Below are positions 796 through 21,297 of a DNA stretch of 24,965 bases, piece after piece. The notes below the pieces were generated by a model that had not been told where the DNA came from, did no database searches, and was given only the letters and a program-made list of their open reading frames with translations. The stretch lies in the IMG/VR virus record IMGVR_UViG_3300036771_000095, positions 1 to 24,965 of that record; one strand, 5' to 3'. Made by a program: the position numbers and the translations under genes. The stretch comes from a virus. Each line of letters begins with the position of its first letter. Position 1 is the stretch's first letter.

Positions 796-1109
796 ATAAG
801 CAGATCGCCGATGATGTACGTCTCATCCTGGTGCGAGAGGCGTCGGCGTACCTCCGGGTGTCGAACATGACGGTCTACCGACTCATCAAGACGGGCGAGC
901 TTCCAGCCACCCGAGTGGGCAAGAACTACCGGCTTCGATACGCCGACCTCTACGCCTACCTGCGGCGACACAACGACGGGGCTGACGACACGGATATGAC
1001 GAACGAGGAGTTCGATCAGGCGATGGCCGAGAGCCTGCCGGTCAAGATCATCACCGAGTCTCCAAACCGTAACCCCAGCGCACAGTCCGATGGAGGCGAC
1101 CGTGGCTGA
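792..1109 (+). CDS. Excisionase-family helix-turn-helix DNA-binding protein
   Basis: 105 aa. Residues 12-60 match the excisionase/MerR-like HTH_17 pattern: LVREASAYLRVSNMTVYRLI is the helix-turn-helix, followed by the typical small wing 'GELPATRVGKNYRLRYADLY'. The acidic tail (residues 61-105) is family-variable. The start is fixed by GGGGAG about 5 nt upstream and by the 4-bp overlap with the previous stop. In this family such proteins act as excisionases or small transcription regulators. No integrase is in the window, so a regulatory role is as likely as excision. Confidence 0.85.
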   Translation: MNKQIADDVRLILVREASAYLRVSNMTVYRLIKTGELPATRVGKNYRLRYADLYAYLRRHNDGADDTDMTNEEFDQAMAESLPVKIITESPNRNPSAQSDGGDRG

Positions 1110-1278
1110 CGACGAGATGGTCATGGTTCGCAGGGCCGACATCAGACTGGTCGTTCGTCACGGAGACGACTGCGGGAAGTGGAGCGGAGAGGCATGGTCA
1201 GCCAGGTGGCGGCTCCTTGAAGCGGCCTCTCTGGGTACGCCAGTGGCCTCCGAACAGTCTGACGGGCAGAACGCATGA
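1102..1278 (+). CDS. Small hypothetical phage protein
   Basis: 58 aa from GTG at 1102, chosen because GGAGG at 1092-1096 lies 5 nt upstream; an in-frame ATG at 1090 precedes that site. It overlaps the previous stop by 8 bp. The N-terminus (VMVRRADIRLVV) looks like a beta-strand/helix seen in small actinophage proteins, followed by a Trp-containing helix. No function can be assigned. Confidence 0.6.
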   Translation: MADDEMVMVRRADIRLVVRHGDDCGKWSGEAWSARWRLLEAASLGTPVASEQSDGQNA

Positions 1279-1385
1279 TCTGGGACCTGTTCATGTGGGT
1301 CTCGACGGTTGTCTATCTCGTCGGCATCGCCCTCTTGAAAGCTGACCGGCTGGAACGACAGATCGACGGTGACGATCATGTGTAA
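1275..1385 (+). CDS. 36 aa single-pass membrane peptide
   Basis: Starts with an ATGA overlap on the preceding stop. Residues 2-22 (IWDLFMWVSTVVYLVGIALL) form one clear membrane helix, followed by a charged cytosolic-type tail. The hydrophobic frame, overlaps at both ends and tandem position with another membrane peptide support it as a real gene. Function unknown. Confidence 0.55.
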   Translation: MIWDLFMWVSTVVYLVGIALLKADRLERQIDGDDHV

Positions 1386-1467
1386 GGGCTGGGTTCTCGC
1401 CTTCATGTTCATGTCGCTGGGTCTCATGTTCATGTCAATCGCCTACCTGCTCGGCGGGCGGCGATGA
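1378..1467 (+). CDS. 29 aa Met-rich membrane peptide
   Basis: ATG at 1378 overlaps the previous gene by 8 bp and the stop overlaps the next start. Almost the whole peptide is one hydrophobic helix (WVLAFMFMSLGLMFMSIAYL) capped by GGRR, which would be positive-inside. A direct repeat of CATGTTCATGTC within the gene produces the Met/Phe pattern. Another 29 aa membrane peptide occurs at 6066. Function unknown. Confidence 0.5.
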   Translation: MCKGWVLAFMFMSLGLMFMSIAYLLGGRR

Positions 1468-1706
1468 TGGGTGACTACGCCGTGCATCTCTTGATGCTGC
1501 CAAGCGACGAACCCGGCGAGATGCCCACCGTCGTCGCGGCGATGGATCAGTACACCGTCGAGATCTGGGGCGGTTGCCCCGACTTCTGGGTGGAAGCGAA
1601 AAAGCTGTATCCGCAAGCGAGGGAAATCGTTGTCCACGTTCCCGACGACCGGATCGTCAGACTGTTCGCCGTACCGCACGTTCGTGTCACCGATCGGGAG
1701 GGATGA
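1464..1706 (+). CDS. Small hypothetical soluble protein
   Basis: 80 aa (79 if the second ATG at 1467 is used). Mixed alpha/beta composition with conserved-looking segments VVAAMDQYTVEIWGG and REIVVHVPDD. The start overlaps the stop of the membrane peptide (ATGATG) and the end overlaps the next gene, so it belongs to one polycistronic unit. No domain recognised. Confidence 0.65.
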   Translation: MMGDYAVHLLMLPSDEPGEMPTVVAAMDQYTVEIWGGCPDFWVEAKKLYPQAREIVVHVPDDRIVRLFAVPHVRVTDREG

Positions 1707-1981
1707 TGTCTCGGGCGAGTGAACACACCTGCCACGCCGTCGCCTGCGGAACTCGTGTTCCGCCTCGGATGTTCATGTGCAAGAAGCACTGGTACATGCT
1801 CCCCAAGACGATGCGAGACGCGGTCTGGGACGAGTACATCCCAGGGCAGGAAGAGCGGATGGACCCAACCGGTGACTACCTCACTGTCGCTACCCGGGCG
1901 GTTCGTTGGCTCGCCATCAAAGAAGGACACGAAGACCCGGTCGCTCTTCCCGTGGTTCCTAGCGACGGGAGCGCGCCATGA
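1706..1981 (+). CDS. Conserved Cys/His phage protein ('VPPRMFMCxxHW' type)
   Basis: 91 aa. C9, C14, C25 and H28 within HAVACGTRVPPRMFMCKKHW form a probable zinc site, followed by the LPK ... VWDEYIPGQE pattern found in small proteins of many phages and plasmids. GGGAGGG at 1696-1702 favours the second ATG (1706) over 1703. The C-terminal helix (YLTVATRAVRWLAIKEG) fits the same family. I know of no established role for the family. Confidence 0.75.
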   Translation: MSRASEHTCHAVACGTRVPPRMFMCKKHWYMLPKTMRDAVWDEYIPGQEERMDPTGDYLTVATRAVRWLAIKEGHEDPVALPVVPSDGSAP

Positions 1982-2136
1982 CACCCGTCGAGTTGGCGCG
2001 ACCCCGATGGCCCTACCGATTGCAGGCGATCACTGCTTTGGCCTGGTTCTCGATTGGGAGTCATCTGCCTGACACTGCCCGGGGAGCGATGATCATCACC
2101 CTGGTGGTGTCCAGCGTCTGGGTGCTCTTCCGATGA
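1978..2136 (+). CDS. 52 aa two-helix membrane protein
   Basis: The ATGA overlap with the preceding stop sets the start. Residues 14-30 (RLQAITALAWFSIGSHL) and 37-51 (GAMIITLVVSSVWVLF) are two hydrophobic helices joined by a short polar turn. The C-terminal Arg codon overlaps the next start (ATGA). Function unknown; one of several tiny membrane proteins in this early region. Confidence 0.55.
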   Translation: MTPVELARPRWPYRLQAITALAWFSIGSHLPDTARGAMIITLVVSSVWVLFR

Positions 2137-5019: not shown

Positions 5020-5094
5020 TCGCACGCCTGTTCGGGTCAGACTGGGTAGGGTGAACTCCGAGAACAGATGAGAGAAATCCCCCAGGAGGCGACA

Positions 5095-5385
5095 GTGAAT
5101 CGGACGGATCTGGTTCGGGCGATCAGCAACAAGGATGACCTGGATGAACAGATCGTCGGTCGTGTCCTGGACTCGTTCCTCGAAGTGGTGAAGATGAGCC
5201 TCTCCATCGGAGAGGAGGTCTCTCTGCGCGGGTTCGGCAGGTTCGAGACGAAGACGATGACCAGCACGGTCCGTCGCGTCCCGAAAACGAGAACGATCGT
5301 GCAGGTCCCCGCCCGATCATCGGTGCGGTTCATCCCATCAGGTGTGCTCCGACAGCATCTGAACGACCGTGCCAATGGCCGATAG
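5095..5385 (+). CDS. HU/IHF-family nucleoid-associated protein
   Basis: 96 aa. VNRTDLVRAISNKDDL is the usual HU N-terminal helix; GFGRFE (residues 46-51) is the family signature; the beta-arm region ends in a VRFIPS strand (residues 77-82) with a C-terminal helix, all at normal HU length. GTG at 5095 is chosen because GGAGG sits 5 nt upstream and the protein then starts like HU. HU proteins bend and compact DNA and assist replication, recombination or promoter control. The following gene overlaps its 3' end. Confidence 0.9.
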   Translation: MNRTDLVRAISNKDDLDEQIVGRVLDSFLEVVKMSLSIGEEVSLRGFGRFETKTMTSTVRRVPKTRTIVQVPARSSVRFIPSGVLRQHLNDRANGR

Positions 5386-7444: not shown

Positions 7445-7472
7445 GAACAGTTGTTTGGTCGATGTCTATGGC

Positions 7473-8417
7473 ATGGCCTACGCATTCGTCCCTGCCAAGT
7501 ACTTCAAGAGGGGCGGCAATCTCCCGCCGACCCGCGTCGTCATACACGACATGGAAGCGCCCGAGAAGGGCGACACGGCCGAGTCGACAGCGGCGTATTT
7601 CCAGCGGATCACCACGCCCGCCAGCGCCCACTACTGCATCGACAACAACAGTATTGTGCAATGCGTGCATGAGGGGGACGTGGCGTACCACGCTCCGCCC
7701 AACACCGGCTCCATCGGTCTCGAACACGCCGGGTACGCCAACCAGTCCATGACCGACTGGCTCGATGACTACGGCAAGCAGATGCTCGACGTCAGCGCCG
7801 CGCTCACCGCCGACATCTGCAAGCGGTACAGCATCCCGATCCAGTACATCGACGCCGCCGGGCTTCTCGCCGGAAAGCACGGCATCACCACCCACGCCCA
7901 GGTCAGCCAAGCCTGGCACCAGAGCGACCACAGCGACCCCGGCCCGAACTTCCCCATGGCCCAGTACCTCGACATGATCCGCGGTCACGCCGCTCCCCCC
8001 ACCGCCACCGGAACCCCCCAGGAGGTCCGCCCCGTGGTCAATGCCCCTGTCGTAACGACCATTTCGCATCCGACCTGGAACGGCGGCTACATCCAGATCG
8101 GCGCCGACGGTGGCACGTTCTCTTGGGTGGCGCCCAACTTCGGGTCGGCTGGAGGGACACCACTCAATTCTCCTGTCGTTGCCGCAGCCGTTTCCCCATC
8201 AGGTCAGGGCTACTGGCTCGTCGCCGCCGACGGCGGGGTCTTCTCCTACGGTGACGCAGGGTTCCACGGATCGATGGGTGGCACTCGGCTCAACAAGCCG
8301 ATCATCGCCATCACTCCGACCGGAACGGGCCAAGGCTACTGGCTCACGGGCTCCGACGGTGGGGTGTTCTCCTTCGGCGACGCCGTCTATCACGGAGCAG
8401 TGCAGTTCAACGGATGA
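7473..8417 (+). CDS. Endolysin: N-acetylmuramoyl-L-alanine amidase with surface-repeat tail
   Basis: 314 aa. Residues 1-170 are an Amidase_2/PGRP-type domain that cleaves the bond between N-acetylmuramic acid and L-Ala in peptidoglycan. Probable zinc ligands are H25 (VVIHDME), H141 (ITTHAQV) and H153 (HSDPGPNFP); E85 is in the active-site region (GLEHAGY). After a Pro/Thr linker, residues 201-314 hold three repeats of about 42 aa ('GYWLVAADGGVFSYGDAGFH' type), the third cut short; they probably bind the cell wall as a propeller-like lectin. No signal peptide, so export needs a holin. ATG 7473 gives the usual MAYAFVPAKYF start; TTG 7455 is possible. No good Shine-Dalgarno. Confidence 0.92.
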   Translation: MAYAFVPAKYFKRGGNLPPTRVVIHDMEAPEKGDTAESTAAYFQRITTPASAHYCIDNNSIVQCVHEGDVAYHAPPNTGSIGLEHAGYANQSMTDWLDDYGKQMLDVSAALTADICKRYSIPIQYIDAAGLLAGKHGITTHAQVSQAWHQSDHSDPGPNFPMAQYLDMIRGHAAPPTATGTPQEVRPVVNAPVVTTISHPTWNGGYIQIGADGGTFSWVAPNFGSAGGTPLNSPVVAAAVSPSGQGYWLVAADGGVFSYGDAGFHGSMGGTRLNKPIIAITPTGTGQGYWLTGSDGGVFSFGDAVYHGAVQFNG

Positions 8418-8803
8418 CCGGATGGCAGATCGCCTGGGCGTTTGTCATCGCCTCGTGGTGGGTGGCGAACCTTGTCGGTCTCATCGTTTCCGTTGCGAGC
8501 CTGCGGGTGGCTCTCACGTTTCGTCATCTCCAACTGGAACGACGCCGGAACGGCCCAAATCCTTTACGGGTCGCGACCGGTCGGACGATCATGTACGCCG
8601 CCCTGTTCATCGACGCTCCCAACGTTTACATCTTGTTCCGACCGAACCGCACCACCGGGCTCAGCGACCGAGTGCTCACAGGCGGCCCCTTCGCTCTGAT
8701 CTTCTTCTCGGCGATGGTCCTGGCCGGGGCGATCGTCGCGGTCGTTGTACTGGCCTTCCTAGACTTACGGGACATGCGGCGGCAAGCAGGTGAGCCGAGA
8801 TGA
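8414..8803 (+). CDS. Three-helix membrane protein, holin candidate
   Basis: 129 aa, ATGA overlap with the endolysin stop. Hydrophobic helices at about 6-34, 57-75 and 91-116, with basic loops (RHLQLERRRNG) and a short charged tail. Position directly after the endolysin and size fit a class I-type holin, though the long N-terminal helix and loop are unusual. Alternatively a membrane antiholin or an unrelated envelope protein. Confidence 0.6.
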   Translation: MTGWQIAWAFVIASWWVANLVGLIVSVASLRVALTFRHLQLERRRNGPNPLRVATGRTIMYAALFIDAPNVYILFRPNRTTGLSDRVLTGGPFALIFFSAMVLAGAIVAVVVLAFLDLRDMRRQAGEPR

Positions 8804-9075
8804 GCGATCCCTACGACCCGGACGATCTCCCTCGCTCGATGCCTCGGCAAGCGCCCTATGCACCGATGCCACGGTCCGCTCACGCCGACGAGTTGCTCAT
8901 TCGGATTGACGAGCGGACCCGGCAGATGGCTGATGAGATGAAGGGGCTGAAAGAAGTGGTCATCACCAGAGCAGAGTTCGCCCCGGTACGCCTCATCGCC
9001 TACGGACTTGTCGGCCTCATTCTCACCCTTGTCATCACGGCCATGGTCGCTACTGTGATCATCAAGACGAAATGA
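8800..9075 (+). CDS. Tail-anchored membrane protein (XhlA-like topology)
   Basis: 91 aa. Pro/Tyr-rich N-terminus, amphipathic helix at about 28-52 (ELLIRIDERTRQMADEMKGL), then one membrane helix at 64-88 (LIAYGLVGLILTLVITAMVA) with KTK at the end. The 'IDERT..m...l.......eF.PVrliaYGlVGlil' pattern is common in phage proteins encoded near lysins; hemolysin XhlA is a topological parallel. Likely holin partner or lysis regulator. Confidence 0.65.
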   Translation: MSDPYDPDDLPRSMPRQAPYAPMPRSAHADELLIRIDERTRQMADEMKGLKEVVITRAEFAPVRLIAYGLVGLILTLVITAMVATVIIKTK

Positions 9076-9081
9076 GGTGAC

Positions 9082-9489
9082 ATGGCCGAGGAAGATCCAG
9101 TGCTGCTTCAGCTGGAAGCCTTGCAGCATGGGACCAACGAACTGCGCGTTGCCGTCGATGGCTACGCCACGGCTGCCCGGAGAAGCCGACTGCACATCCG
9201 GCTGCTGGCCTTGTCGTTGGTGTTCGACATCTCTCTCTCGGTTGGACTGGGCGCCCTCGCCATCAAGGCCGACAACGCTTCCAAGAAGGCGACGTCTGTC
9301 AGAGCGCAGCAACGCTCTAGTTGCACTGCTGGCAACGAGGCGCGTTCGATCGAGTCGCAGCTCTGGAACTACGTGCTGAATTCCCCGCCGCCTGCGAACC
9401 AGACTCCGGCTGAAGCGGCGACCCTCAAGCAAGAAGTTGATCGATTCAGGACGTTCATCGGCGATGTCTTCCAACCCAGGGTTTGCTGA
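9082..9489 (+). CDS. Single-pass membrane protein with exported Cys domain
   Basis: 135 aa; GAGGTG upstream of the ATG. Helical cytosolic region 1-35, basic RRSRLHIR stop, membrane helix at about 39-61, then an exported domain with C81 and C135 and the motif CTAGNEARSIESQLWNYVL. It resembles a phage membrane-protein group with 'GNE.R..e..LW.YVL'. It shares its layout with 10255 and 10700 (helix, membrane span, outer Cys-containing domain). Spanin-like or holin-associated function is inference. Confidence 0.6.
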   Translation: MAEEDPVLLQLEALQHGTNELRVAVDGYATAARRSRLHIRLLALSLVFDISLSVGLGALAIKADNASKKATSVRAQQRSSCTAGNEARSIESQLWNYVLNSPPPANQTPAEAATLKQEVDRFRTFIGDVFQPRVC

Positions 9490-9490
9490 C

Positions 9491-9649
9491 ATGGGTCTAT
9501 TCAAGAGGCGGCAGCCACCTCCGCCGCCGCCACCGGTAATTCGCTACGTCTATCGGGAAGTTTCCATGGTCGACCGCTTGAACGCTTTGGCAGATTCCAT
9601 GGACGAGGCCATCAAGCAGATCCGATCGACCAGAGTGGGTGTTGGATGA
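9491..9649 (+). CDS. FKRRQPP proline-rich small protein, copy 1
   Basis: 52 aa from ATG 9491, directly after the previous stop. MGLFKRRQPP is followed by a seven-Pro run (PPPPPPP), VIRYVYREVS and an amphipathic helix (MVDRLNALADSMDEAIKQI). A related gene on the other side of the PAS gene (10062) starts with the same FKRRQPP motif, also at DNA level. Cytosolic; a membrane-surface or scaffold peptide is possible. Confidence 0.55.
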   Translation: MGLFKRRQPPPPPPPVIRYVYREVSMVDRLNALADSMDEAIKQIRSTRVGVG

Positions 9650-10065
9650 CTGATCTCGTTCTCTCGATGGACACCATGATGCGGGACCTGGCCCGCGTCC
9701 AGTTCATGCTCCGGGGCATTGAGGCCGACGTCTCGATCTTCGCTGACGACAAGGGTCGCATCCTCTACACGTCACCCGGCGCCGAAAAACTGACCGGTTG
9801 GAAGCTCTCCGAAGTCGTCGGTCGCTCCCTCACCCTCCTGATGCCGAACCGCTACCACAAACTTCACCAGCAAGGATTGGAACGGGTGTCGTCCACCGGT
9901 GGCGGCTTCGATAGCTCCAGGGTGCTGTTCCGGACTCTAGAGATGCCGCTGCTGACCAAGGCTGGACGGGAGGTCGGAATCCATCTCTCGGTGGCTGCCT
10001 GGCGTTCCACTGAGGGACGTCTCTACTTCGTTGCTGGAATGGCGCCAGTGGAGACGGAATCGTGA
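9646..10065 (+). CDS. PAS-domain sensor protein
   Basis: 139 aa; starts in the overlap with 9491-9649 and ends in a GTGA overlap. Residues 1-25 form an amphipathic helix (MMRDLARVQFMLRGI). Residues 28-133 match a PAS fold: 'VSIFADDKGRILYTSPGAEK', LTGWKLSEVVGRSLTLLMP, the RYHKLHQQG helix, TLEMPLLTKAGREVGIHLSV and GRLYFVAGMA at the end. PAS domains bind flavin, heme or small ligands, or mediate dimerisation. No kinase, HTH or other output domain is present, so it must act through a partner; neighbours suggest a membrane protein. No signal peptide. Confidence 0.85.
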   Translation: MTDLVLSMDTMMRDLARVQFMLRGIEADVSIFADDKGRILYTSPGAEKLTGWKLSEVVGRSLTLLMPNRYHKLHQQGLERVSSTGGGFDSSRVLFRTLEMPLLTKAGREVGIHLSVAAWRSTEGRLYFVAGMAPVETES

Positions 10066-10262
10066 AGTTCAAACGGCGGCAGCCACCCGAACCGATCAAG
10101 CCAATGGCGAACGATCCGCAACAGCCGCCCTCGGAGGTCACCGAGTTCATGGCCCGAGAAATGTTCTCGGTAGTTGAGCAATTACGTGGCGCATCAGCGA
10201 GCCTGGAAAATGTGCTGACCGAGATGTCCGAGAAACTGACTGAGGAGCCTAAGGATGAGTGA
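10062..10262 (+). CDS. FKRRQPP small protein, copy 2
   Basis: 66 aa from GTG 10062, overlapping the PAS stop by 4 bp. MKFKRRQPPEPIKP repeats the start of the 9491 protein; a Pro/Gln linker and an amphipathic helix (MAREMFSVVEQLRGASASLE) with an acidic tail follow. Together with 9491 it brackets the PAS gene. Function unknown; a partner of the PAS protein is plausible by context only. Confidence 0.55.
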   Translation: MKFKRRQPPEPIKPMANDPQQPPSEVTEFMAREMFSVVEQLRGASASLENVLTEMSEKLTEEPKDE

Positions 10263-10713
10263 GGGAGAGCGTCTCGACGCCGCCGTCGACCAGGCCGTCG
10301 CGTTGCGCCAATCAGTCGATGCTCTGACTACCGCCATCATGGGGGCGGTCCCGAAACAGGACAAGCGTTTCCGTCAATCCGTCATCCTCCTCCTCATCGG
10401 CGGTCCGGCGCTCTTCGTAGCAACCATGGCCTTCGCTACGTACTCCATCCATCAGGCGCACTCCAATGAGCGGGTGCTCCGTAACGGGGTGGCCTGCCTG
10501 CTGGCCGATCTCGATGATCATCGTCATACCAACCAGAATGCCCACAACACCTTGGCGACGGCGCATCACATCGAGATCATCCAGCCCGACCTCATCCCAC
10601 TCAGCAAGTCTCAGGTAGACGCGCTCAAGCAGTCCTGTGACACCTACGTCCGCGCTGCCGTCGGCCAGGGGCTGCGCTCTGTCGGCGGAAAGGCTGCCAA
10701 TGCCCATCCCTGA
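10255..10713 (+). CDS. Single-pass membrane protein, copy of the 9082 architecture
   Basis: 152 aa; GAGGAG 7 nt before the ATG. Helical cytosolic region 1-35, membrane helix at about 41-63 (QSVILLLIGGPALFVATMAF), then an exported region with C81 (VACLLADLDDHRH), a His-rich stretch and a second Cys in LKQSCDTYVRAAVG. Same topology as 9082 and 10700 but low sequence identity, suggesting old divergence or convergent function at the envelope. Confidence 0.6.
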   Translation: MSEGERLDAAVDQAVALRQSVDALTTAIMGAVPKQDKRFRQSVILLLIGGPALFVATMAFATYSIHQAHSNERVLRNGVACLLADLDDHRHTNQNAHNTLATAHHIEIIQPDLIPLSKSQVDALKQSCDTYVRAAVGQGLRSVGGKAANAHP

Positions 10714-11071
10714 GAACCTTCTCATCGAACTCCGGGCCGAACTGGCCGATGTCCGCGGTCTACTCATCGAGGCCCTGGCCGATTTCACGCTCTACCAGGA
10801 AGGTCTGCTCAAGCTCCACGAGCGAGAACAGACGATCGCCAGGTTCTACCGCAAGGCTTTCATCGGCGTCACGATCGTGCTGGCGTTGTTCATTGGATTC
10901 GGCACCTCCCAAATCATCAGCACGAAGCACATCGCCAGACAGGGCAGACAAGTCAGTGACCAAAACAATCAGCTTCTCCGTGAAGTTGATTGCGTGGTGC
11001 GGGCTTCGGCGACTCTTGTTCCGGGCAGCAAGGAGCAGTCCGCCGCTTTTCTCAAGTGCGTCCAGAAGTGA
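10700..11071 (+). CDS. Single-pass membrane protein with exported Cys pair
   Basis: 123 aa; overlaps the previous gene by 14 bp. Long coiled-coil-like N-terminus (LLIELRAELADVRGLLIEAL), basic RFYRKAF flank, membrane helix at about 52-72, then an exported domain with C98 and C120 that could form one disulfide (LREVDCVVRASATLVPGSKE). Third member of the same layout. Spanin-like role possible, but no lipoprotein partner is established. Confidence 0.6.
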   Translation: MPIPENLLIELRAELADVRGLLIEALADFTLYQEGLLKLHEREQTIARFYRKAFIGVTIVLALFIGFGTSQIISTKHIARQGRQVSDQNNQLLREVDCVVRASATLVPGSKEQSAAFLKCVQK

Positions 11072-11080
11072 GGAGCAGCC

Positions 11081-11473
11081 ATGTCGAATCCGGCACTTTC
11101 TCGTGGCCTACGGAAAGCGGGCCGAGCCATCATCCAACTGGTCGCAGGAGGCGGAGCCACCGCGCTCGTTGATCTCCTGGCTCACGGCCTGGCCCCAGCT
11201 TCCGCGGCGCTCATCATGGCGGCATTCACCGCCGTTGCCAGCTTCCTCCACAACTACCTGGAGACGAACGGCACCATCCCAGCCATCCTGCCTACACCAG
11301 GGCTAATCACCACGTCGCCATCCACGGGAGTTGTTGGCAAGGTGGTGGGCACCGTCGATACGGTGACGGGAGGCGCCGGTCAGGTCGTCGGCGATGTCGT
11401 CAACACGGCTGGGAACGTTGTAGGTGCCATAGCGGGAGCCGCCGGGCTCGCCGCTGACTCTGGAGGTGTCTGA
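11081..11473 (+). CDS. Holin-like membrane protein with Gly/Val tail
   Basis: 130 aa; GAGGAG before the ATG. Helices at about 14-35 (GRAIIQLVAGGGATALVDLL) and 38-57 (APASAALIMAAFTAVASFLH), then NYLETNGTIPAILPTPG, a pattern I associate with actinophage membrane proteins near lysins. The tail (residues 82-130) consists of imperfect repeats such as VVGTVDTVTGGAGQVVGDVV, possibly a third membrane-active segment. Best holin candidate along with 8414. Confidence 0.65.
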   Translation: MSNPALSRGLRKAGRAIIQLVAGGGATALVDLLAHGLAPASAALIMAAFTAVASFLHNYLETNGTIPAILPTPGLITTSPSTGVVGKVVGTVDTVTGGAGQVVGDVVNTAGNVVGAIAGAAGLAADSGGV

Positions 11474-11631
11474 TGGCCTTCGGGCTACCAAACGTTGATC
11501 AGCTAGAGAAGATGTTCGATGAGGATTTCGATCGTCTGATCGCCAAACTGGACGAGCTCTTGGTTGAGGTCAAGGGGATGCGCGGCGATCTGCAAGCGCG
11601 TGGCGAGCCGCAGGGGCAGAAGAAGCAATGA
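11473..11631 (+). CDS. 52 aa coiled-coil peptide
   Basis: Single-base overlap with the previous stop. Residues 8-42 form a continuous amphipathic helix (LEKMFDEDFDRLIAKLDELL), then a polar QGQKKQ end. Its stop overlaps the start of the lipobox peptide at 11628. Small soluble oligomeriser; function unknown. Confidence 0.5.
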   Translation: MAFGLPNVDQLEKMFDEDFDRLIAKLDELLVEVKGMRGDLQARGEPQGQKKQ

Positions 11632-11762
11632 TCCTACCGATTCTCTTTCTGTTGTTCACTGCTTGCGGGAACGGCAACGACACGATCTGGACCGGGTTCT
11701 CCGGGGTAATCATCTTTGGGATCGTGGCGCTCGTAGTTCTTCACTACCTCAAGAAAAAGTAG
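11628..11762 (+). CDS. 44 aa peptide with lipobox and second membrane helix
   Basis: Starts in an ATGA overlap. MILPILFLLFTAC matches a lipoprotein signal with Cys at position 13 (lipobox LFTAC, imperfect at -3), followed by GNGNDT and a second hydrophobic helix (SGVIIFGIVALVVLHYL) ending in KKK. A mature product would be lipid-anchored and membrane-spanning. Tiny lipoproteins are known as outer spanins, but an actinobacterial host lacks an ordinary outer membrane, so that role is doubtful. It may simply be a two-helix peptide. Confidence 0.5.
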   Translation: MILPILFLLFTACGNGNDTIWTGFSGVIIFGIVALVVLHYLKKK

Positions 11763-13158: not shown

Positions 13159-13421
13159 AGGTCTACGAGGTTGCCAAAGGAAGCGGGGTCACGCAGCTGT
13201 ACAAGTGTGGGCACTGCGACGGGAAGATCAAGCCCGGCGAGTGGGTTCTCGACTGGCTGAAACTCGACCGTGAGAGCCTGTTCACGAAGCAGCGGGTGGT
13301 CACTCACATCGAGTGTGTTCGCAAGCTGATCGCTGAAGCAGGAGTTCCCGAGGAGTCGGAACGGGCGTTCCGAAGGCTGCGGGAGAAGATGGTCGTCACT
13401 GGCAAAGTGTTTCCGTCGTGA
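13155..13421 (+). CDS. Small zinc-finger protein (CxxC...HxxC)
   Basis: 88 aa from GTG in a GTGA overlap. C18-x2-C21 (YKCGHCDGKIKPGEWVLDW) and H51-x2-C54 (VVTHIECVRKL) form one zinc site of a treble-clef-like type; 'KPGE.VLDWLKLDRE' is conserved in similar phage proteins. The C-terminal helix is basic. Function unknown; nucleic-acid binding likely. Confidence 0.7.
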   Translation: MKVYEVAKGSGVTQLYKCGHCDGKIKPGEWVLDWLKLDRESLFTKQRVVTHIECVRKLIAEAGVPEESERAFRRLREKMVVTGKVFPS

Positions 13422-13624
13422 CTTCGGCGCAGCAGGAGCTCGTGGATGCAGTGAAGACGTTCTGGGCGGAGAACGGGTTCGCTCCGACGGTGCGGGATCT
13501 ATGTCAGGCAACTGGGCGCACTTCGACTTCCACAATCCATGCGCATCTGCAGCGGCTTCGGCGGGCGGGCGTGGTGGATTGGGCGGAGGGTCGGCAACGG
13601 ACGTTGCGGGTGTGCGGTGACTGA
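13418..13624 (+). CDS. LexA-like winged-helix DNA-binding protein without peptidase
   Basis: 68 aa, GTG start in an overlap. The whole protein matches the LexA N-terminal DNA-binding domain: QQELVDAVKTFWAENGFAPT, then VRDLCQATGRTSTSTIHAHLQ with recognition helix STIHAHLQRLRRAG, then the RTLRV wing. The LexA autoproteolytic domain (Ala-Gly cleavage, Ser/Lys dyad) is absent. It may occupy LexA-type operators, or a phage operator, without SOS-triggered cleavage. Confidence 0.8.
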   Translation: MTSAQQELVDAVKTFWAENGFAPTVRDLCQATGRTSTSTIHAHLQRLRRAGVVDWAEGRQRTLRVCGD

Positions 13625-13844: not shown

Positions 13845-13948
13845 AGCGGCTGATCATCGCTCTTGCTCTGATTTTTCTCCCAGCGTCTCTTCCGCCGCCG
13901 TCTTGCTTGGTGCCAGTTCCCTTCCACTGCGATCCGCCGCCGCGATGA
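13841..13948 (+). CDS. 35 aa exported peptide
   Basis: GTG start in a GTGA overlap; the stop overlaps the glycosyltransferase start. VKRLIIALALIFLPASL is a signal-peptide-like or membrane-anchor segment; the remainder is Pro-rich with two Cys (PSCLVPVPFHCDPPPR). Possibly a tiny secreted or membrane peptide. Low information content. Confidence 0.4.
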   Translation: MKRLIIALALIFLPASLPPPSCLVPVPFHCDPPPR

Positions 13949-14640
13949 TTGACCTGCTCGTTGGGTGCCCCGTGAGTCAACGGGCATGGATCCTCCCTCG
14001 CTGGCACGACCATGTCGCCGTGGCAGCTGACATCGCCGGAGTCGCATTCAGCTATGCCTTCGTGATCGACCCGCTCGACGTCTTCAGTGTCAGCGTCATC
14101 GAAGCGTTCCCCGTCGATTCAATCCTCGACTTCGTACAAGACGGCAGATCACTCGATGAACGGTCATGGAACCACGACAGGTACTTCCACATGGCGTTTC
14201 TCCGTAACCGCCTTCTGCGGACCGTCAGCCTGTTCGACCCGCCGTTCTTCTTGTCGCTCGACTCTGACATCCTTCTGCACCCCGACGCGATCAAAAACAT
14301 GCTCGAAACAACAAGTACGTACGACGTGGTTGGTGGGAAGACCTTCATGACACCCGGCGGCACAGCCTGTCCAAGCTGGGGGTTCCACACTTACAACGAC
14401 GGGTTGAGACGCAGCGATGCCGACGGCGTGTTCCCTGTCGAAGTCGTGATGGCGGTGAAACTGCTGACCCCGAAAGCGTACGAGATTCCCTACGAGTTCC
14501 ACAGCCACGGCGAAGATCTTGGGTTCTCGATCAACTGCCGAAAGGCAGGGCTGTCGCTGGGAGTGGACGCCCGCGTGACCAACAAGCACGTGATGCGCCA
14601 AGAGGATTTGGAGAAGATCGATGAACGCTGCGGCTTCTAA
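13945..14640 (+). CDS. GT-A fold glycosyltransferase
   Basis: 231 aa. FFLSLDSDILLHPDAI carries the DxD motif (D106, D108) that binds the metal and nucleotide-sugar, and FHSHGEDLGFSINC (E190, D191) is the usual acceptor/catalytic acidic motif near the end of GT-A domains. The N-terminus (MIDLLVGCPVSQRAWILPRW) differs from the common GT2 start, so it is closer to the short GT-A phage enzymes with an ED-x-FS motif. No membrane segment. It probably transfers a sugar to a virion or host-surface acceptor; substrate unknown. Overlaps the next glycosyltransferase. Confidence 0.8.
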   Translation: MIDLLVGCPVSQRAWILPRWHDHVAVAADIAGVAFSYAFVIDPLDVFSVSVIEAFPVDSILDFVQDGRSLDERSWNHDRYFHMAFLRNRLLRTVSLFDPPFFLSLDSDILLHPDAIKNMLETTSTYDVVGGKTFMTPGGTACPSWGFHTYNDGLRRSDADGVFPVEVVMAVKLLTPKAYEIPYEFHSHGEDLGFSINCRKAGLSLGVDARVTNKHVMRQEDLEKIDERCGF

Positions 14641-15430
14641 GTACAAGCCTGGGCTCGATCTCGTGATCGTGAACTACCAGACGGCAATGGACCTCCGCGA
14701 CTGCCTCGCGTCGCTCGTTGAGGTCGCTCCGACCGTGGACTACGACCTTACGCTCGTCAACGTCTCGCCACTCCCAGCCGACAAGCTGGTCCTGAAGGAC
14801 TGGGAACGCAAAGCGAAGATCACGACCTACCTGGAGTACTCCAAGAACGTTGGTTACGCCAGGGCCGTCAACGCCGGGTTGCGCGACGGGCAGCGAGAAG
14901 TGTGCGTGGCGCTCAACGCTGACATCTTGTTCCTGCCTGACGCGTTGGAGCTCTGCCACCAGGCCCTGATGGCGCATGACGACTGGGGGGTGCTGGGGCC
15001 ACGACAGATTGACGATCGGGGCCGGTTCACTCACGCCGGGATCTTCGGAACGAACACTAGACCGCGGCATCGCGGCTGGCATGAAGCGAACCAGGGTCAG
15101 CATCAGGACGTGCAGGATGCGGTGACGGTCGCCGGATCGGCCTACTTCGTGAAACGGTCATTGTGGGAAGAGCTCACGGCGTGTCCGGTCTACCAGGACT
15201 TCTGTGGATCCGAGGGGGCCTTTCTCCCGACGAACCACTACTACGAGGAGACGTGGTGCAGTTACCACGCCGCCAGCCACGGGGCGCGGGTCATGTACTA
15301 CGGGGAGGCCACGCTGGTGCATCGCTGGCACCGGGCCTCTCCGGTGGGCGGAGCGGCGGATCAGCAGATGTCGGCGTCCAGAACCCTATTCAGGGCAGCG
15401 TGTGACGCTCACGGCATCCCCAGGGACTAG
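14621..15430 (+). CDS. Rhamnosyltransferase-like family 2 glycosyltransferase
   Basis: 269 aa. VIVNYQT (15-21) is the GT2 first strand, NVGYARAVNAGL (76-87) the conserved nucleotide-region motif, and LNADILF (98-104) the DxD-equivalent. GSAYFVKRSLWEE and YYEETWCSYHA match the acceptor region of rhamnosyl-type GT2 enzymes (the latter in place of 'edvDlclR'). ATG 14621 follows a GGAG site and overlaps the first glycosyltransferase by 20 bp. The last four bases CTAG hold the stop codons of this gene and the convergent methyltransferase. Donor sugar not provable from sequence. Confidence 0.85.
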   Translation: MNAAASKYKPGLDLVIVNYQTAMDLRDCLASLVEVAPTVDYDLTLVNVSPLPADKLVLKDWERKAKITTYLEYSKNVGYARAVNAGLRDGQREVCVALNADILFLPDALELCHQALMAHDDWGVLGPRQIDDRGRFTHAGIFGTNTRPRHRGWHEANQGQHQDVQDAVTVAGSAYFVKRSLWEELTACPVYQDFCGSEGAFLPTNHYYEETWCSYHAASHGARVMYYGEATLVHRWHRASPVGGAADQQMSASRTLFRAACDAHGIPRD

Positions 15431-16071
15431 CGAGCCACCACGAACACGCCGTCGTGGTTGGAGAAGAGCCAATAGCGACGAAGATCAGCGACGAGGCCGG
15501 GTCGGTTATGCAAACCGGCTTCCTTCAGTCGTTCCGTCCACCACAGACGAGACTTGATCGTGACGTGGGTCGGGTCACTGTCCCACCCCGGCTGGTTCTC
15601 GGTGCAGATCGTCAGGACAGCGTGACCGCCTGGCATGAGAGAGTTACGGATGCACGCCAGGGCAGTGGCGATGCGGTCTGTGGCGATGTGCTCCAACGTC
15701 TCGAAGCAGACCACTATGCTGAATGCCTCCCGGCCGTAGAAGGTGTCGTCGCCAGAAGTGAGGTCATACCATTGCAGTTGGTCTCTCACGTCGTCCGGGG
15801 CGTGAGCTAAGGCAAAATGGCTGGCGTCGACCCCGAATGTTTCGACACCGCGGCGTTGCATGTGGCGGACGAAGAAGCCGAAGGCGCAGCCGATGTCGAG
15901 GCATCGATGTGACGACGACCGGTCCTGATTGGCGCTGCGGTCCGGAACGAGTGTTTCCCAAACGGCGTGGCTGAGATCCTGCCACATCAAGGAATCCTGA
16001 TATCCGGCGCCGCCGTCGAGCGTGTCCCAGTATTCCTGGCCGTACGTCAGGTCGTCAGTCCGGAACTCCAT
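15427..16071 (-). CDS. Class I SAM-dependent methyltransferase
   Basis: 214 aa from ATG 16071, which overlaps the CmcI-like stop. CLDIGCAFGFFVRHM (58-71) is the SAM-binding glycine motif, GVDAS follows as the acidic end of strand 2, then FETLEHI (123-129) and SLMPGGHAVLTICTEN, the motif of O-methyltransferases acting on sugars or small molecules. The C-terminus (TVKS/WWTERLKEAG region) is family-like. Last gene of a three-gene minus operon. Acts probably on a glycan with the other two enzymes. Confidence 0.85.
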   Translation of the reverse strand: MEFRTDDLTYGQEYWDTLDGGAGYQDSLMWQDLSHAVWETLVPDRSANQDRSSSHRCLDIGCAFGFFVRHMQRRGVETFGVDASHFALAHAPDDVRDQLQWYDLTSGDDTFYGREAFSIVVCFETLEHIATDRIATALACIRNSLMPGGHAVLTICTENQPGWDSDPTHVTIKSRLWWTERLKEAGLHNRPGLVADLRRYWLFSNHDGVFVVAR

Positions 16072-16700
16072 CACGTGTGCTTCCGGAGGAACCCGCCGGG
16101 GTTGAACGTCATGAAGAACTTTTCGCATCCGAGGTCGATCTCGTACTCGGGATGCCTCGTCAGGAACTCCTCGATGGCTTCTCCGGGGCCGGGGCCGTGC
16201 TCGATGGCGATCGGATGCCCGTTGACGTTGGAGTCCTCCACGATCAGGTAGCTGTCTGCTGTGACAAGCGGAGCGTAGAGTTCGAGCTCTTGCGCGACGT
16301 GGGCTTGGCGATGGTCCGAATCCAAGATCACCATGACCGTGCCAGCTGCTTGAGAACGAAGCCGGTCTACGATCCCGGGATCGGTGGAGCTCCCATGGAT
16401 GTACTCGATCCGCGGATGGACGGGACGGTCAGGGAAGAATGGTGTCCCGGCGACATCGATGGTGACGACACGACCAGACCCGAGTAGATCGAACAGGCAG
16501 GCGAAGTAGTGGGCGCTACCCCCGAAGGCTGTCCCGGTTTCGATGAGCAGATCGGGGCGGATCTGATGGATGAGCTCTTGGTAGACCCACAGATCGAGCG
16601 GGCATTTCAGGATTTTCGTTCCGAGCCAGTAGGTCTGCTCCCAGGTCTGCTGGAAGCTGTTGTAGTAGAGCCGGTGGAAGTCATCGACGGTCGGGTTCAT
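16071..16700 (-). CDS. CmcI-like (cephalosporin hydroxylase/rhamnosyl O-methyltransferase family) methyltransferase
   Basis: 209 aa, full length for the family. DLWVYQELIHQIRPDLLIET leads into GTAFGGSAHYFACLFD (SAM pocket), HPRIEYIHGSS, VMVILDSDHRQAHVAQELEL (D127, D129, H130 as metal-site residues), YLIVEDSNVNGHP (E155, D156) and GPGPGEAIEEFL, the hallmark series of CmcI/rhamnosyl O-methyltransferases. Members methylate sugar hydroxyls, for instance in mycobacterial glycopeptidolipids. Overlaps both operon neighbours by 1-4 bp. Confidence 0.9.
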   Translation of the reverse strand: MNPTVDDFHRLYYNSFQQTWEQTYWLGTKILKCPLDLWVYQELIHQIRPDLLIETGTAFGGSAHYFACLFDLLGSGRVVTIDVAGTPFFPDRPVHPRIEYIHGSSTDPGIVDRLRSQAAGTVMVILDSDHRQAHVAQELELYAPLVTADSYLIVEDSNVNGHPIAIEHGPGPGEAIEEFLTRHPEYEIDLGCEKFFMTFNPGGFLRKHT

Positions 16701-17191
16701 CGTTCCCCTTCTACGCGCAGGTAGCCAACTTCCCAGCCGCGACCGATGTTCACGATTCGTAGTCCGAGGTTCTCGAAGTCTTCGGTCAGCATTCGTGGGG
16801 TCAACCCGACCATGTGAAAGTCGTACTTGTTGGCTTGACCTCCGAAGATGATCTGTTGGATGGCCCGGTCCATCTCCAACGTGTCGATTTCAAGCACTTG
16901 GCGGCAGGCAGCGAGGAAGTCCGGGGTTTCCACGATCAGTTTCCCGCCGGGACCGACAAGCCGTGCCCATTCTCGCAGGTAGAGCCTGTAGTCAGCCCAG
17001 GGGACGTGCTCGATCATCTCCTGGCTGTAGACCACTGCGGCACAGCCGTTGGGGAGGTTGATGTGGCGGGCGTCGCAGACGAGATCGACGGGGTGGTGGT
17101 GGCCTTCCTCGTCGGTGAGTGGGGTGGAGTCGGCGTCGATGTGGGTCCAGTCGGGACCGAGCCATCTGCGGGTTCCGATCACGAGCTTCAT
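16697..17191 (-). CDS. Methyltransferase-like protein with degenerate motif I
   Basis: 164 aa. MKLVIGTRRWLGPDWTHIDA occupies the place of the usual 'l.lGcG....gwi.vD' motif of methyltransferase type 11 proteins, but the GxG is replaced by GTR. VDLVCDARHINLP, VVYSQEMIEHVPWADYRLYL (EH at 61-62) and LVGPGGKLIVETPDF are intact. It may still bind SAM or serve as a non-catalytic subunit. First gene of the minus operon; no clear promoter or Shine-Dalgarno found. Divergent from the + gene at 17246. Confidence 0.75.
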   Translation of the reverse strand: MKLVIGTRRWLGPDWTHIDADSTPLTDEEGHHHPVDLVCDARHINLPNGCAAVVYSQEMIEHVPWADYRLYLREWARLVGPGGKLIVETPDFLAACRQVLEIDTLEMDRAIQQIIFGGQANKYDFHMVGLTPRMLTEDFENLGLRIVNIGRGWEVGYLRVEGER

Positions 17192-17233
17192 ACGGTCTAG
17201 TCGACACGGAGAGTGGTTGGTCGTAGAGGCGGG

Positions 17234-17239
17234 TACACG
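17234..17239 (+). promoter_or_regulatory. -10 TACACG for leaderless membrane peptide
   Basis: TACACG ends 7 nt before the A of ATG 17246. No matching -35. It fits the TACANT-like pattern at 604, 7215(-) and 12782. The remaining intergenic sequence 17192-17245 shows no other feature. Confidence 0.35.
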
Positions 17240-17245
17240 TCGCCC

Positions 17246-17347
17246 ATGATCGCTGACCAGATTGTGATCGGTGGAGATGTCGTCTCCATCCTCATCGTGA
17301 TCCTCCTCATCCTCTTGATCATTGCCTTGGCGAAACGGATCTTCTAG
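17246..17347 (+). CDS. 33 aa single-pass membrane peptide
   Basis: MIADQIVIGG, then one very hydrophobic helix (VVSILIVILLILLIIALA) and KRIF. Its TAG overlaps the GTG of the next gene by one base. Predicted leaderless start. Function unknown; tiny membrane proteins next to glycosyltransferases can act as anchors or flippase partners, but nothing here proves it. Confidence 0.5.
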   Translation: MIADQIVIGGDVVSILIVILLILLIIALAKRIF

Positions 17348-17568
17348 TGGCGTTCTCGATTCCGGACCCAGACGCGGATCTGTTGGTGAAGTTCCACTTC
17401 GTCATGATGTGCGTCTGGGTCCTACTTCTGATTCCTACGCTGATCTGGTGGAAGCAGTCGATCCTCTGGGTCGCGGCGATGAGTCTGTACGCGAATTTCG
17501 TGGGGCATTTCAGCGCGTGGGACGCGGCGATGGCGGCGCGGGCTGCGAGCACCAAAGGAGAGCCATGA
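17347..17568 (+). CDS. Two-helix membrane protein
   Basis: 73 aa from GTG 17347. DPDADLLVKFHF then helices at about 17-35 (FVMMCVWVLLLIPTLIWW) and 38-55 (SILWVAAMSLYANFVGHF), ending in FSAWDAAMAARAAS. Small proteins of this pattern occur in actinophages near structural genes. Function unknown. Confidence 0.65.
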   Translation: MAFSIPDPDADLLVKFHFVMMCVWVLLLIPTLIWWKQSILWVAAMSLYANFVGHFSAWDAAMAARAASTKGEP

Positions 17569-17600
17569 GTTGAGGCGAACGTCTGGTCGATGCCGTGACC

Positions 17601-18338
17601 ATGCGATTGTTCGCCCTCATGGTCACGAAGAACGAAGCCGACCGGTATCTCGGTCTGGCGCTCTCAGCGTTACGCCCCGTGGTGGACGAAGTCTTCGTCT
17701 TCGATGACATCTCCTCCGACACGACCGTTTCGATCGCGGAGGAGCATGGGTGCGTATGCACCAGTCGACATCCGACCGGACCGTCGTTTCTCGAACACGA
17801 AGGTCGGTTCCGGCAGATGGCGTGGGACGTGTTCGAAGCTGCGCTCGAACCCGAGATCGGCGACTGGATCCTCGCCATCGACGCCGACGAGATCGTCACG
17901 GCCATTGGGAATCCTCGCGAGCTCCTCCTGGAAGCAGCTGAAGCTTCAAACGGCCGTGGGGAGCTCGCCCGTCAGATCCCGATCCCGGAGGTGTTCGATG
18001 TCCGCGACGGTGTTCCGTTCGTGCGGCTCGATGGGTACTGGGGGAAGATCGTCGGGACCCGCTTCTTTGCTTACCAGCCGAACGGGAAGTTCTCCGAGAG
18101 GGCGATGGCGTCAGGCAGCGAGCCGCTCTACATCCGTCCCTACATCGGTCCAATCGTTGAAGGGTTCTGGCTTTTGCATCTCGGCTATGCGAGGAAAGCT
18201 GATCAGATCGCCAAGTCGCAGCGGTATACCGAACGGGTCGGTCATAGCGACGCTCACGTCGCGTCGATACTGAAGGAACCGCGGTTGGCGAAGTGGACCG
18301 GTCCATCAATTCCGAGATTGCATGACTACTTCTCGTAG
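17601..18338 (+). CDS. Glycosyltransferase family 2 protein
   Basis: 245 aa from ATG 17601; GTG 17595 is in frame. MRLFALMVTKNEADRYLGLA is the standard 'KNEa' GT2 start, FVFDDISSDTTVSIAEEHGC the nucleotide-binding strand and turn, WILAIDADEIVT (D94, D96) the DxD metal site, and EGFWLLHLGYA the C-terminal aromatic motif. It belongs to the short GT2 type that uses 'DaDE'. Probably the third sugar-transfer step of this block. The packaging promoter begins within its last codons. Confidence 0.88.
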   Translation: MRLFALMVTKNEADRYLGLALSALRPVVDEVFVFDDISSDTTVSIAEEHGCVCTSRHPTGPSFLEHEGRFRQMAWDVFEAALEPEIGDWILAIDADEIVTAIGNPRELLLEAAEASNGRGELARQIPIPEVFDVRDGVPFVRLDGYWGKIVGTRFFAYQPNGKFSERAMASGSEPLYIRPYIGPIVEGFWLLHLGYARKADQIAKSQRYTERVGHSDAHVASILKEPRLAKWTGPSIPRLHDYFS

Positions 18339-19021: not shown

Positions 19022-19606
19022 ATGGCGCTTGCTGAGGTTCCCACCCGAGTCGAGTCTTTCCTCACTGCTGTTGACGAAGCCTCCCGACGGAAAGGGCGAC
19101 GACTCTCGTGGAATGAACGAGTCGAGATCATCTACGACTTCTTCCCCCGCAGCAAGGACCCAGACTGGAACCTGATCCTCCAAGACCTCGATTCGTTCGG
19201 CGAGATCGTCAGAGACATCCTGCGGCTCGAACAAGCCACCCCCGGAAAGTCCGGGCCACGTCCTTCTCCTGATCTACGGGAAGGGATGAAATCGATCCGG
19301 AAACTGAACGGAGAAGACCACACCATTCTCCGATTCAATGAAGCCTTCAAGGTATTGGCCCAAGGGGTCTCGCTGACTGCTCTGGCGAGGAAGACGCATC
19401 TGTCCCGCACTCAGCTGCACCGGCTGATGCACGGCGAGTGCGACCCGTCCCCTCATGAGCTCAGCCAGGTCGCCAAAGCCTTCGGGAAGGAACCGTCCTA
19501 CTTCCTGGAGTTCCGCAGCGCGTTCATCCTCGCGGCCCTCGGTGCTCGGCTGGAACTGGCCCCCGAAGCGACCATTGGGCTGTTCAGGAAGGTCACGAAG
19601 GCATAG
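19022..19606 (+). CDS. HTH protein, probable small terminase subunit
   Basis: 194 aa, starts directly after the previous TAG. The N-terminal half is helical; residues 115-162 form a Cro/C1-like helix-turn-helix (VSLTALARKTHLSRTQLHRL, then MHGECDPSPHELSQVAKAFG). Its TAG overlaps the GTG of the large terminase, so the two are probably translationally coupled. Small terminase subunits recognise pac/cos sites through an HTH. Alternative: an independent regulator. Confidence 0.65.
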   Translation: MALAEVPTRVESFLTAVDEASRRKGRRLSWNERVEIIYDFFPRSKDPDWNLILQDLDSFGEIVRDILRLEQATPGKSGPRPSPDLREGMKSIRKLNGEDHTILRFNEAFKVLAQGVSLTALARKTHLSRTQLHRLMHGECDPSPHELSQVAKAFGKEPSYFLEFRSAFILAALGARLELAPEATIGLFRKVTKA

Positions 19607-21297
19607 TGGCCCTGGCGGAAAGAATTCTTGAAACCCCTCTGGTTTTCGAAGATCTAACTGACGAGGAATGCGCCCTCTTCTGCATCCTCGAAGACCCTTC
19701 AGGCATCGATCAGGCCGAGTTCCTGTGGGTGGACGAGTCCACTCCTGACTCGTGCTGGCGGGCTTGGGACTTCCAGTGGATGTGGTGGCGCTCCGAAGAT
19801 CCGCTGCAGATCGACCAGTGCGCACGGTCAGTTGGGAAATCCACGTCCATCGTGGCACGGGCATGTGCGTTCCCGTTGAAATACCCCGGCCAAGAGATGA
19901 TTATCACGGCTCCCGAGTTCATCCATTTGGATCCAGTGACATCGCTGGTAGAGCAACGCTTACTCTCAACGCGGCTGTACAGAGAGATGTTGCCGAGCGC
20001 GCGGTTGTCGGTCACCCACCGACCATTCAAGGTCCAATTCTCCAACGGTTCACGGATCATGGGCCGGATCCCGCAGCGGGACGGTCGTGGGATCAAGGGT
20101 ACGCACCCGACGTGTCTGGAAATGGATGAGGCGCAGGACTATCCGCATCCGGGCTGGGTGGAGATCACCGAAACGCTGAAACGAGGCAGTCTCGGCGCGA
20201 CTTGGCGTGTTCATGGCGTAACCAGAGGGATCCGCGACGACTTCTACGAGCGGACCCAGGACGCTCCGGACAATCCATGGAGGGTTCACCGCTACTGCGC
20301 TATGTGGCGGGGAACCTGGACCGACGAGGAGCGCGACGAGAAGATTCAGCAGTACGGCTCCCGTGACGACCCGGACTATCGACGTAACGTCCTCGGGCTC
20401 CACGGCGACAAGTCGAATCCGCTGTTCGTTCTGACTCGGCTGATGAAGTGCGTCGATTCCGACGAGACGTCGGACTACAACACCGACGAGTATGTCCACA
20501 TCACGGTGAAGGCCGAGACGATGTCCTACTACGGGCAGGACATCCTCGACTTCATGGAGTTCCCCGAGCGACACAAGAAGTACCTGGGGACGGGCCGGAA
20601 ACCGAAGGCGTTCTTCTGGGTGGGGATGGACGTCGGCTACACCACCGACCCGTCAGAGATCCTCGTGTTCGTGGAGTACCGGAAACGGCTGTTGGACGAC
20701 GAACCGTCGAAGATGAAGCTCCTAACCCGGATCCACCTGGAACGGATCGGCCACCAGGATCAGGTCAAGGCGATCCTGAAGGTGATCGACTGGTACCGGC
20801 CGCAGGCGTTCGCCATGGACAAGACGGGTCTGGGTCTGCCGCTCTACCAGGACATCCAGCAGACCGTCGCTCCCGACCCCACACGACGATTCATATTGGA
20901 CGTCATCAAGGGGTACAACTTCTCCGAAAAAATTATCGTTGATTTGGACTCGGCGATCGCAGTGAGCGAGTTCGCCGACTCGGAGGAGATCTCCCGAACC
21001 CAGGGAATCCGCCGAACAGTAGTCGAATACGCCTCGGATGTGCTGCGGGATCTGGTGGACGCTCACCGTCTGGAGCTCCCATGGGACGCCGAACTCCTGA
21101 AGCAATTCCAGGGTTCGACGTGGACGCAGGTCCGTTCTATGGACCAATACGGCCGCAAACAATTCTCGCAGCACAACTGCCACACGCTGGACGCCAGTCG
21201 AATGGCCGTGCTGGGGCAGGCCCAACGGCGCATCGAAGAAGTGCTGCAGAGCCACGAAGCTCCGCCAGTTCTCGACGTTTTCATGTCGATGGGCTAG
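19606..21297 (+). CDS. terL: Terminase large subunit (ATPase and nuclease)
   Basis: 563 aa, GTG start overlapping the previous stop. The Walker A-like loop CARSVGKST (72-80, K78) lacks the usual first Gly, as in many terminases. LEMDEAQ (171-177, D174/E175) is Walker B with catalytic Glu. The RNase H-like nuclease region carries VGMDVGYT (D342), FAMDKTG (D405) and CHTLDASRM (D529), a plausible metal-binding acid triad. Packages concatemeric DNA into the prohead through the portal and cuts it. Partners are the upstream HTH protein and the portal at 21701. Length normal. Confidence 0.92.
   Translation: MALAERILETPLVFEDLTDEECALFCILEDPSGIDQAEFLWVDESTPDSCWRAWDFQWMWWRSEDPLQIDQCARSVGKSTSIVARACAFPLKYPGQEMIITAPEFIHLDPVTSLVEQRLLSTRLYREMLPSARLSVTHRPFKVQFSNGSRIMGRIPQRDGRGIKGTHPTCLEMDEAQDYPHPGWVEITETLKRGSLGATWRVHGVTRGIRDDFYERTQDAPDNPWRVHRYCAMWRGTWTDEERDEKIQQYGSRDDPDYRRNVLGLHGDKSNPLFVLTRLMKCVDSDETSDYNTDEYVHITVKAETMSYYGQDILDFMEFPERHKKYLGTGRKPKAFFWVGMDVGYTTDPSEILVFVEYRKRLLDDEPSKMKLLTRIHLERIGHQDQVKAILKVIDWYRPQAFAMDKTGLGLPLYQDIQQTVAPDPTRRFILDVIKGYNFSEKIIVDLDSAIAVSEFADSEEISRTQGIRRTVVEYASDVLRDLVDAHRLELPWDAELLKQFQGSTWTQVRSMDQYGRKQFSQHNCHTLDASRMAVLGQAQRRIEEVLQSHEAPPVLDVFMSMG

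Follow-up and report, generated by a model that had tools for sequence, protein, structure and literature searches.

Among phage-encoded PAS sensors, the nearest precedent for one tied to lysis is VqmA of vibriophage VP882, in which a PAS domain joined to a DNA-binding domain acts on the transcription of qtip and feeds the lysis-lysogeny decision (PMC8284805). The protein described in the present study resembles VqmA in being a phage-encoded PAS protein, but has no output domain and is located in the lysis cassette itself. By sequence and fold comparisons with the PDB, its best matches are the heme-PAS oxygen sensors FixL, DosP, and FG214, from which it differs in having no kinase, phosphodiesterase, or DNA-binding part and in carrying a four-residue insert before the G strand. 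Small proteins from phages of uncultured Caudovirales listed in BFVD as "PAS domain" proteins (approximately 165-205 aa) share the PAS fold, but are of a different PAS type, with 12-16% identity in structural alignments.

Regarding the surrounding genes, actinobacteriophage cassettes have been described in which several diverse holin-like genes follow lysin A (PMC9671378), and in these phages the timing of lysis is affected by single-TM proteins, LysF1b among them (PMC13056207). The present locus is similar in that an endolysin gene is followed by diverse small TM genes with overlapping frames and intervening small genes; on the other hand, the excerpted accounts of those cassettes mention no PAS protein (PMC9671378; PMC13056207), and lysin B was not recognized in our sequence. 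A literature search for work joining PAS domains with endolysins or holins found nothing relevant.

The window, by which we mean the whole stretch of DNA analyzed, is an IMG/VR virus record of 24,965 bases. The genes of its lysis region are given below; TM segments were called by hydropathy alone.

7455-8417, plus strand: endolysin, Amidase_2 domain with C-terminal repeats (GYWLVAADGGVFSYGDAGFHGS-like); Pfam 2e-21, PHROG endolysin 9.3e-33
8414-8803, plus strand: membrane protein, at least two TM segments; its position suggests a holin-like protein, with a PHROG holin match only at E 0.02
8800-9075, plus strand: amphipathic helix and C-terminal TM segment by hydropathy, a putatively XhlA-like layout
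9082-9489, plus strand: single-TM protein by hydropathy, two Cys in the presumed ectodomain
9491-9649, plus strand: 52-aa basic/proline-rich plus helix protein (FKRRQPP) with no TM segment, overlapping the PAS start
9646-10065, plus strand: stand-alone PAS (S-box) protein of 139 aa, from profiles and predicted fold
10062-10262, plus strand: 66-aa paralogue of the 9491 product (FKRRQPP; blastp 8.6e-5) with no TM segment, its GTG start overlapping the PAS stop
10255-10713, plus strand: single-TM protein with a two-Cys ectodomain; very weak 9g-type spanin match, E 0.2
10700-11071, plus strand: single-TM protein with a two-Cys ectodomain, by hydropathy
11081-11473, plus strand: small protein, one or two hydrophobic segments by hydropathy
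11628-11762, plus strand: 44-aa protein, lipobox-like at its N-terminus (LLFTAC) and with a TM segment at its C-terminus

The PAS gene belongs to the lysis cassette: it is co-directional with its neighbors, overlaps them, and lies near the endolysin, which is encoded four genes upstream, and the TM genes. The overlaps on both sides that the first-pass annotation had described are of four bases each: ATGA (9646-9649) is shared with the gene before it and GTGA (10062-10065) with the gene after it. That annotation had also placed the gene among small membrane proteins following the endolysin, which holds for membership of the cassette, but not for the direct neighbors; the PAS gene is flanked on both sides by the paralogous tiny FKRRQPP-plus-helix proteins of 9491 and 10062, neither of which has a TM segment, and the membrane proteins come next out. 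The TM genes of the window are probably lysis genes because their layout resembles that of actinobacteriophage lysis cassettes; no profile in Pfam, PHROG, or NCBIfam named them with confidence. Searches with the flanking membrane genes 9082 and 10255 returned no relatives, and no conserved copy of the cassette was found in any other contig. Promoter and terminator scans remained at the chance level, and there was no Rfam match.

Several further features of the window were noted. Three single-TM proteins (9082-9489, 10255-10713, and 10700-11071) each have two cysteines in the presumed ectodomain, and the product of 11628-11762 resembles a unimolecular spanin in reduced form. The endolysin repeats of the GYWLVAADGGVFSYGDAGFHGS type resemble actinobacterial surface-protein repeats, a possible clue to the host, and a search for a plasmid match to these repeats returned none. 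Upstream, 5068-5385 encodes an HU/IHF-type DNA-binding protein (2.1e-20).

The open reading frame at 9646-10065 is present and open as annotated, and its assignment as a PAS protein, which had originally been made from sequence pattern, is confirmed far above chance. It matched PF00989 (3.2e-11; 43.7 bits against a cut-off of 22.6), PF13426 (6.5e-8), and PF08448 (5.1e-5), all above the curated cut-offs, as well as the NCBIfam S-box model TIGR00229 (8e-13; 48.6 bits against 22.9), and a sequence search of the PDB returned DosP as the best match (4.4e-7) and also FixL. An AlphaFold2 model built from a 24-row alignment of PAS domains from the collected loci reached a mean pLDDT of 84.4 and a pTM of 0.74, while a model built with no alignment (pLDDT 55) was discarded. 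The elements in the model follow the complete PAS order of helix, two beta strands, four helices, and three beta strands, and a Foldseek search of the PDB with it gave 575 matches with E<=1e-3, among them FG214 (2.6e-8), FixL (3.9e-8), and DosP (7.8e-8). The chain consists of an N-terminal helix (residues 2-24) and a PAS core (residues ~28-134), and stops just past the last strand, with no TM segment predicted by hydropathy, no HTH DNA-binding domain of the VqmA type, and, as the first-pass annotation had stated, no output domain in its 139 aa. Its C-terminus reads AGMAPVETES and does not include the DIT-like motif through which 79 of the 99 homologous bacterial domains continue into the output domain. 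The product is thus a PAS-only member of the bacterial S-box "MPERYRxxHxxG" subfamily that has lost the kinase or effector part and the DIT motif.

The loss of the output domain and DIT motif, together with orthologue searches (INPHARED; IMG/VR peptide patterns) that found none, may be taken to indicate a decaying and functionless fragment of a captured sensor kinase. We consider this to be very unlikely in view of the intact frame, the tight overlaps at both ends, the confident predicted fold, and the occurrence in two other phages of PAS proteins truncated in a like manner. Codon usage also matches that of the structural genes of the phage (score 0.248, against -0.06 and -0.28 for the shifted frames), and because it fits the phage's own, the gene is probably not a very recent arrival.

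Of the stimuli that had been suggested for this protein, light sensing through LOV or PYP chemistry is ruled out, as judged from the sequence, because the protein contains no cysteine. With respect to heme, His74 aligns with the proximal His77 of DosP, and the distal positions Met95 and Arg97 of DosP are Arg96 and Leu98 in the PAS protein by sequence alignment, positions at which other heme-PAS proteins also vary; the roles of the proximal His and the distal Met/Arg in DosP and FixL are taken here as established. His74 makes no particular case for heme because 58 of the 67 generic relatives have a His in the heme-ligand column. Heme binding may be possible, though it is not indicated. The same observations, namely, no decisive cofactor motif, a His at the heme position common to most homologues, and Arg and Leu at the distal positions, would fit a PAS fold that serves as a dimeric scaffold in a lysis complex with no sensing at all, and the short direct neighbors, with their predicted helical stretches and no TM segments, would fit such an adaptor as well. 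The core positions of the PAS domain are, however, conserved and its fold retained, as shown by the comparison with homologues and the AlphaFold2 model, and we regard a ligand-free adaptor as quite improbable.

Concerning the origin of the domain, no match to the window PAS was obtained among the 50,697 phage records of INPHARED at E 0.01 (best E 0.8), and no close relatives were found in PHROGs or, by peptide patterns, in IMG/VR. Matches at <=1e-6 were obtained in one bacterial class (62 of 274 genomes) and in another phylum (38 of 251 genomes), the best at 2.7e-16. Since bacterial genomes match the window PAS and phage records do not, its source is likely to be a bacterial S-box PAS domain, usually found within a large sensor protein. 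A PAS-only protein also occurs in bacteria (L118, 137 aa). A similarity between the PAS protein and 12478 (blastp 0.002) was taken as chance.

The first-pass annotation had proposed looking in related phages for conservation of the gene next to the lysin. The terminase encoded at 19606-21297 of the window shares 52% identity with its counterpart in Caudovirales GX15bay, which comes from mangrove soil, and 55 relatives were found for it in IMG/VR. Of the ~56 terminase-related records, most of which are fragments that do not include the lysis region, only three (G012, G013, and G015) contain a PAS gene. The PAS proteins of these three are of a different kind, namely, PAS_4-type; they have the DIT motif and a long helix at the C-terminus, and fall apart from the window PAS in a tree. 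They are located between RusA (2.2e-18) and a glycosyltransferase, with no recognized lysin nearby, as in the following loci.

L063, 1465-1923: other stand-alone PAS type, 152 aa, between RusA and glycosyltransferase
L061, 1246-1716: other stand-alone PAS type, 156 aa, between RusA and glycosyltransferase

Conservation beside the lysin was not borne out in this lineage, the three PAS-bearing relatives carrying another type at another site, which goes part of the way toward the refuting outcome named in the first-pass annotation, namely, related phages that have the gene far from lysis genes. The gene appears to be an accessory one in the terminase lineage because only three of ~56 relatives have a PAS, and of another kind. 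As side observations, 13418-13624 in the window encodes a LexA DNA-binding domain alone (1.8e-16), with similar ORFs in 19 related loci, and 13903-18338, between the lysis region and the terminase, holds glycosyltransferase and methyltransferase-like genes on both strands, a block partly common to GX15bay and other relatives.

An accessory gene with bacterial relatives may be a moron, the PAS-only product of which would heterodimerize with the PAS domains of host histidine kinases or cyclic-di-GMP enzymes and act as a dominant negative, in a late operon that tolerates cargo. This is consistent with the nearest relatives being the PAS domains found in multi-domain sensors of bacteria (E as low as 2.7e-16), the existence of PAS-only proteins in bacteria, the different PAS held by three related phages between RusA and the glycosyltransferase, and the richness in accessory genes of the interval between lysin and terminase. 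Repeated placement in the lysis cassettes of unrelated phages would be unexpected for free cargo, as would fusion to a membrane segment of the cassette type; both were found, as described below, and we consider interference with host signaling unlikely, although it deserves serious attention.

The whole of IMG/VR was scanned, regardless of gene position, with a DNA motif encoding "MP-x-RY-[R/H/Q]...H..G". Of the four contigs that matched, two (G586 and G585) encode a PAS domain of the window subfamily, in both cases within a lysis cassette:

G586: gene order VanY/M15-type endolysin (156 aa), PAS-only protein (150 aa), coiled-coil protein with a C-terminal TM segment (72 aa), overlapping at both joints
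L166 (IMGVR_UViG_3300036859_000606), 871-1998, minus strand: the second stand-alone S-box PAS after that of the window, with the M15/VanY-type endolysin on one side and the coiled-coil/TM protein on the other, overlapping both
L172 (G585), 8984-9802, minus strand: protein of 272 aa with three TM segments and a PAS domain, and no output domain

The G586 contig (37.5 kb) carries portal-, terminase-, tape-measure-, and integrase-like ORFs, as read by eye, and its endolysin matches Pfam at 1.6e-5 and PHROG at 4.5e-4. In G585 (205 kb), the gene for a two-TM protein that matches holins weakly precedes an Amidase_2 endolysin (1.4e-10), which is followed by small membrane genes; the TM-PAS gene lies 2.8 kb downstream of the endolysin on the same strand, and its TM part is paralogous to a neighboring membrane protein at ~10329-10802 (28% over 74 aa, 1e-5). 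A relationship between 8414 of the window and the G585 TM region was considered and rejected (phmmer 0.009; blastp 0.27).

Two other, unrelated phages therefore carry PAS domains of the same subfamily within their lysis cassettes, likewise with no output domain and in one case as a fusion with a membrane segment, which brings the cases to three in total. The three PAS domains are 36-41% identical to one another over 84-106 aa, and the DIT motif present in 79 of 99 bacterial homologues is absent from all of them. Based on simple gene and distance counts, the probability of chance adjacency in both G586 and G585 would be roughly 0.001. The three domains formed a clade in 0% of bootstrap trees, which were poorly resolved with few columns; independent recruitment of PAS domains to lysis cassettes is the simplest reading, and a shared origin is possible. 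The lysis role had been proposed from position, and the link between the PAS domain and the lysis cassette is now supported by recurrence because a position-blind scan yielded two unrelated phages with a like placement.

A weaker parallel was obtained from Cellulophaga phages. Foldseek searches of BFVD returned proteins of phages phi19:1 and phi18:3 (E 4e-5 and 1.5e-3), which were taken to be gp108 and gp090 by protein length rather than accession. Three such proteins, annotated as hypothetical and encoded beside or close to endolysin genes, have a hydrophobic helix at the N-terminus and are predicted to adopt a PAS-like fold:

L174, 39102-39620: Cellulophaga phage protein, helix and PAS-like fold
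L178, 2911-3546: Cellulophaga phage protein, helix and PAS-like fold
L175, 8203-8925: Cellulophaga phage protein, helix and PAS-like fold

The gp090 gene is two genes ahead of a GH108 endolysin, and its homologue in phi38:2 (gp11) overlaps an M15 endolysin (gp12; Pfam 3.5e-17), while gp108 precedes a lysozyme by ~1.5 kb, an interval that contains two small genes on the opposite strand. Pfam did not confirm the PAS assignment of these proteins and hhalign against an S-box profile showed no homology, for which reason PAS-fold proteins near endolysins in Cellulophaga phages may parallel the window as a lead only.

Taken together, the best-supported reading is that of a PAS module in the lysis machinery that would work by contacting other proteins, as a free protein in two of the phages and tethered to the membrane in the third. 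Phages may have recruited PAS domains to lysis cassettes as protein-binding and probably ligand-responsive modules. In the window, the PAS protein would pair through its N-terminal helix or the face of its sheet with the helical neighbors 9491 and 10062 or, alternatively, with the cytoplasmic helices of the single-TM cassette proteins; a ligand or the redox state would shift this pairing, and the shift would alter how the holin-like proteins assemble or are triggered and, hence, the time of lysis. We tentatively favor such a module, one that targets the cassette's membrane and coiled-coil proteins and tunes lysis time, at somewhat less than an even chance, with sensing and the role in timing being the parts that we infer. 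A wider proposal, that unrelated phages have independently placed PAS domains in the lysis machinery, free or on a holin-like segment, such that oxygen, redox state, or a metabolite would act on the trigger directly through the protein, bypassing transcription, is more doubtful.

Holin timing is usually pictured as an intrinsic clock that collapses with the membrane energy. If the present reading is true, PAS domains in lysis cassettes would represent a dedicated input to the holin clock, the sensing of the state of the cell by a phage before lysis would become testable by the deletion of one small gene, and a ligand-controlled lysis switch would be on offer. Even as a mere scaffold, the PAS protein would be a recurrent and hitherto unannotated component of phage lysis cassettes.
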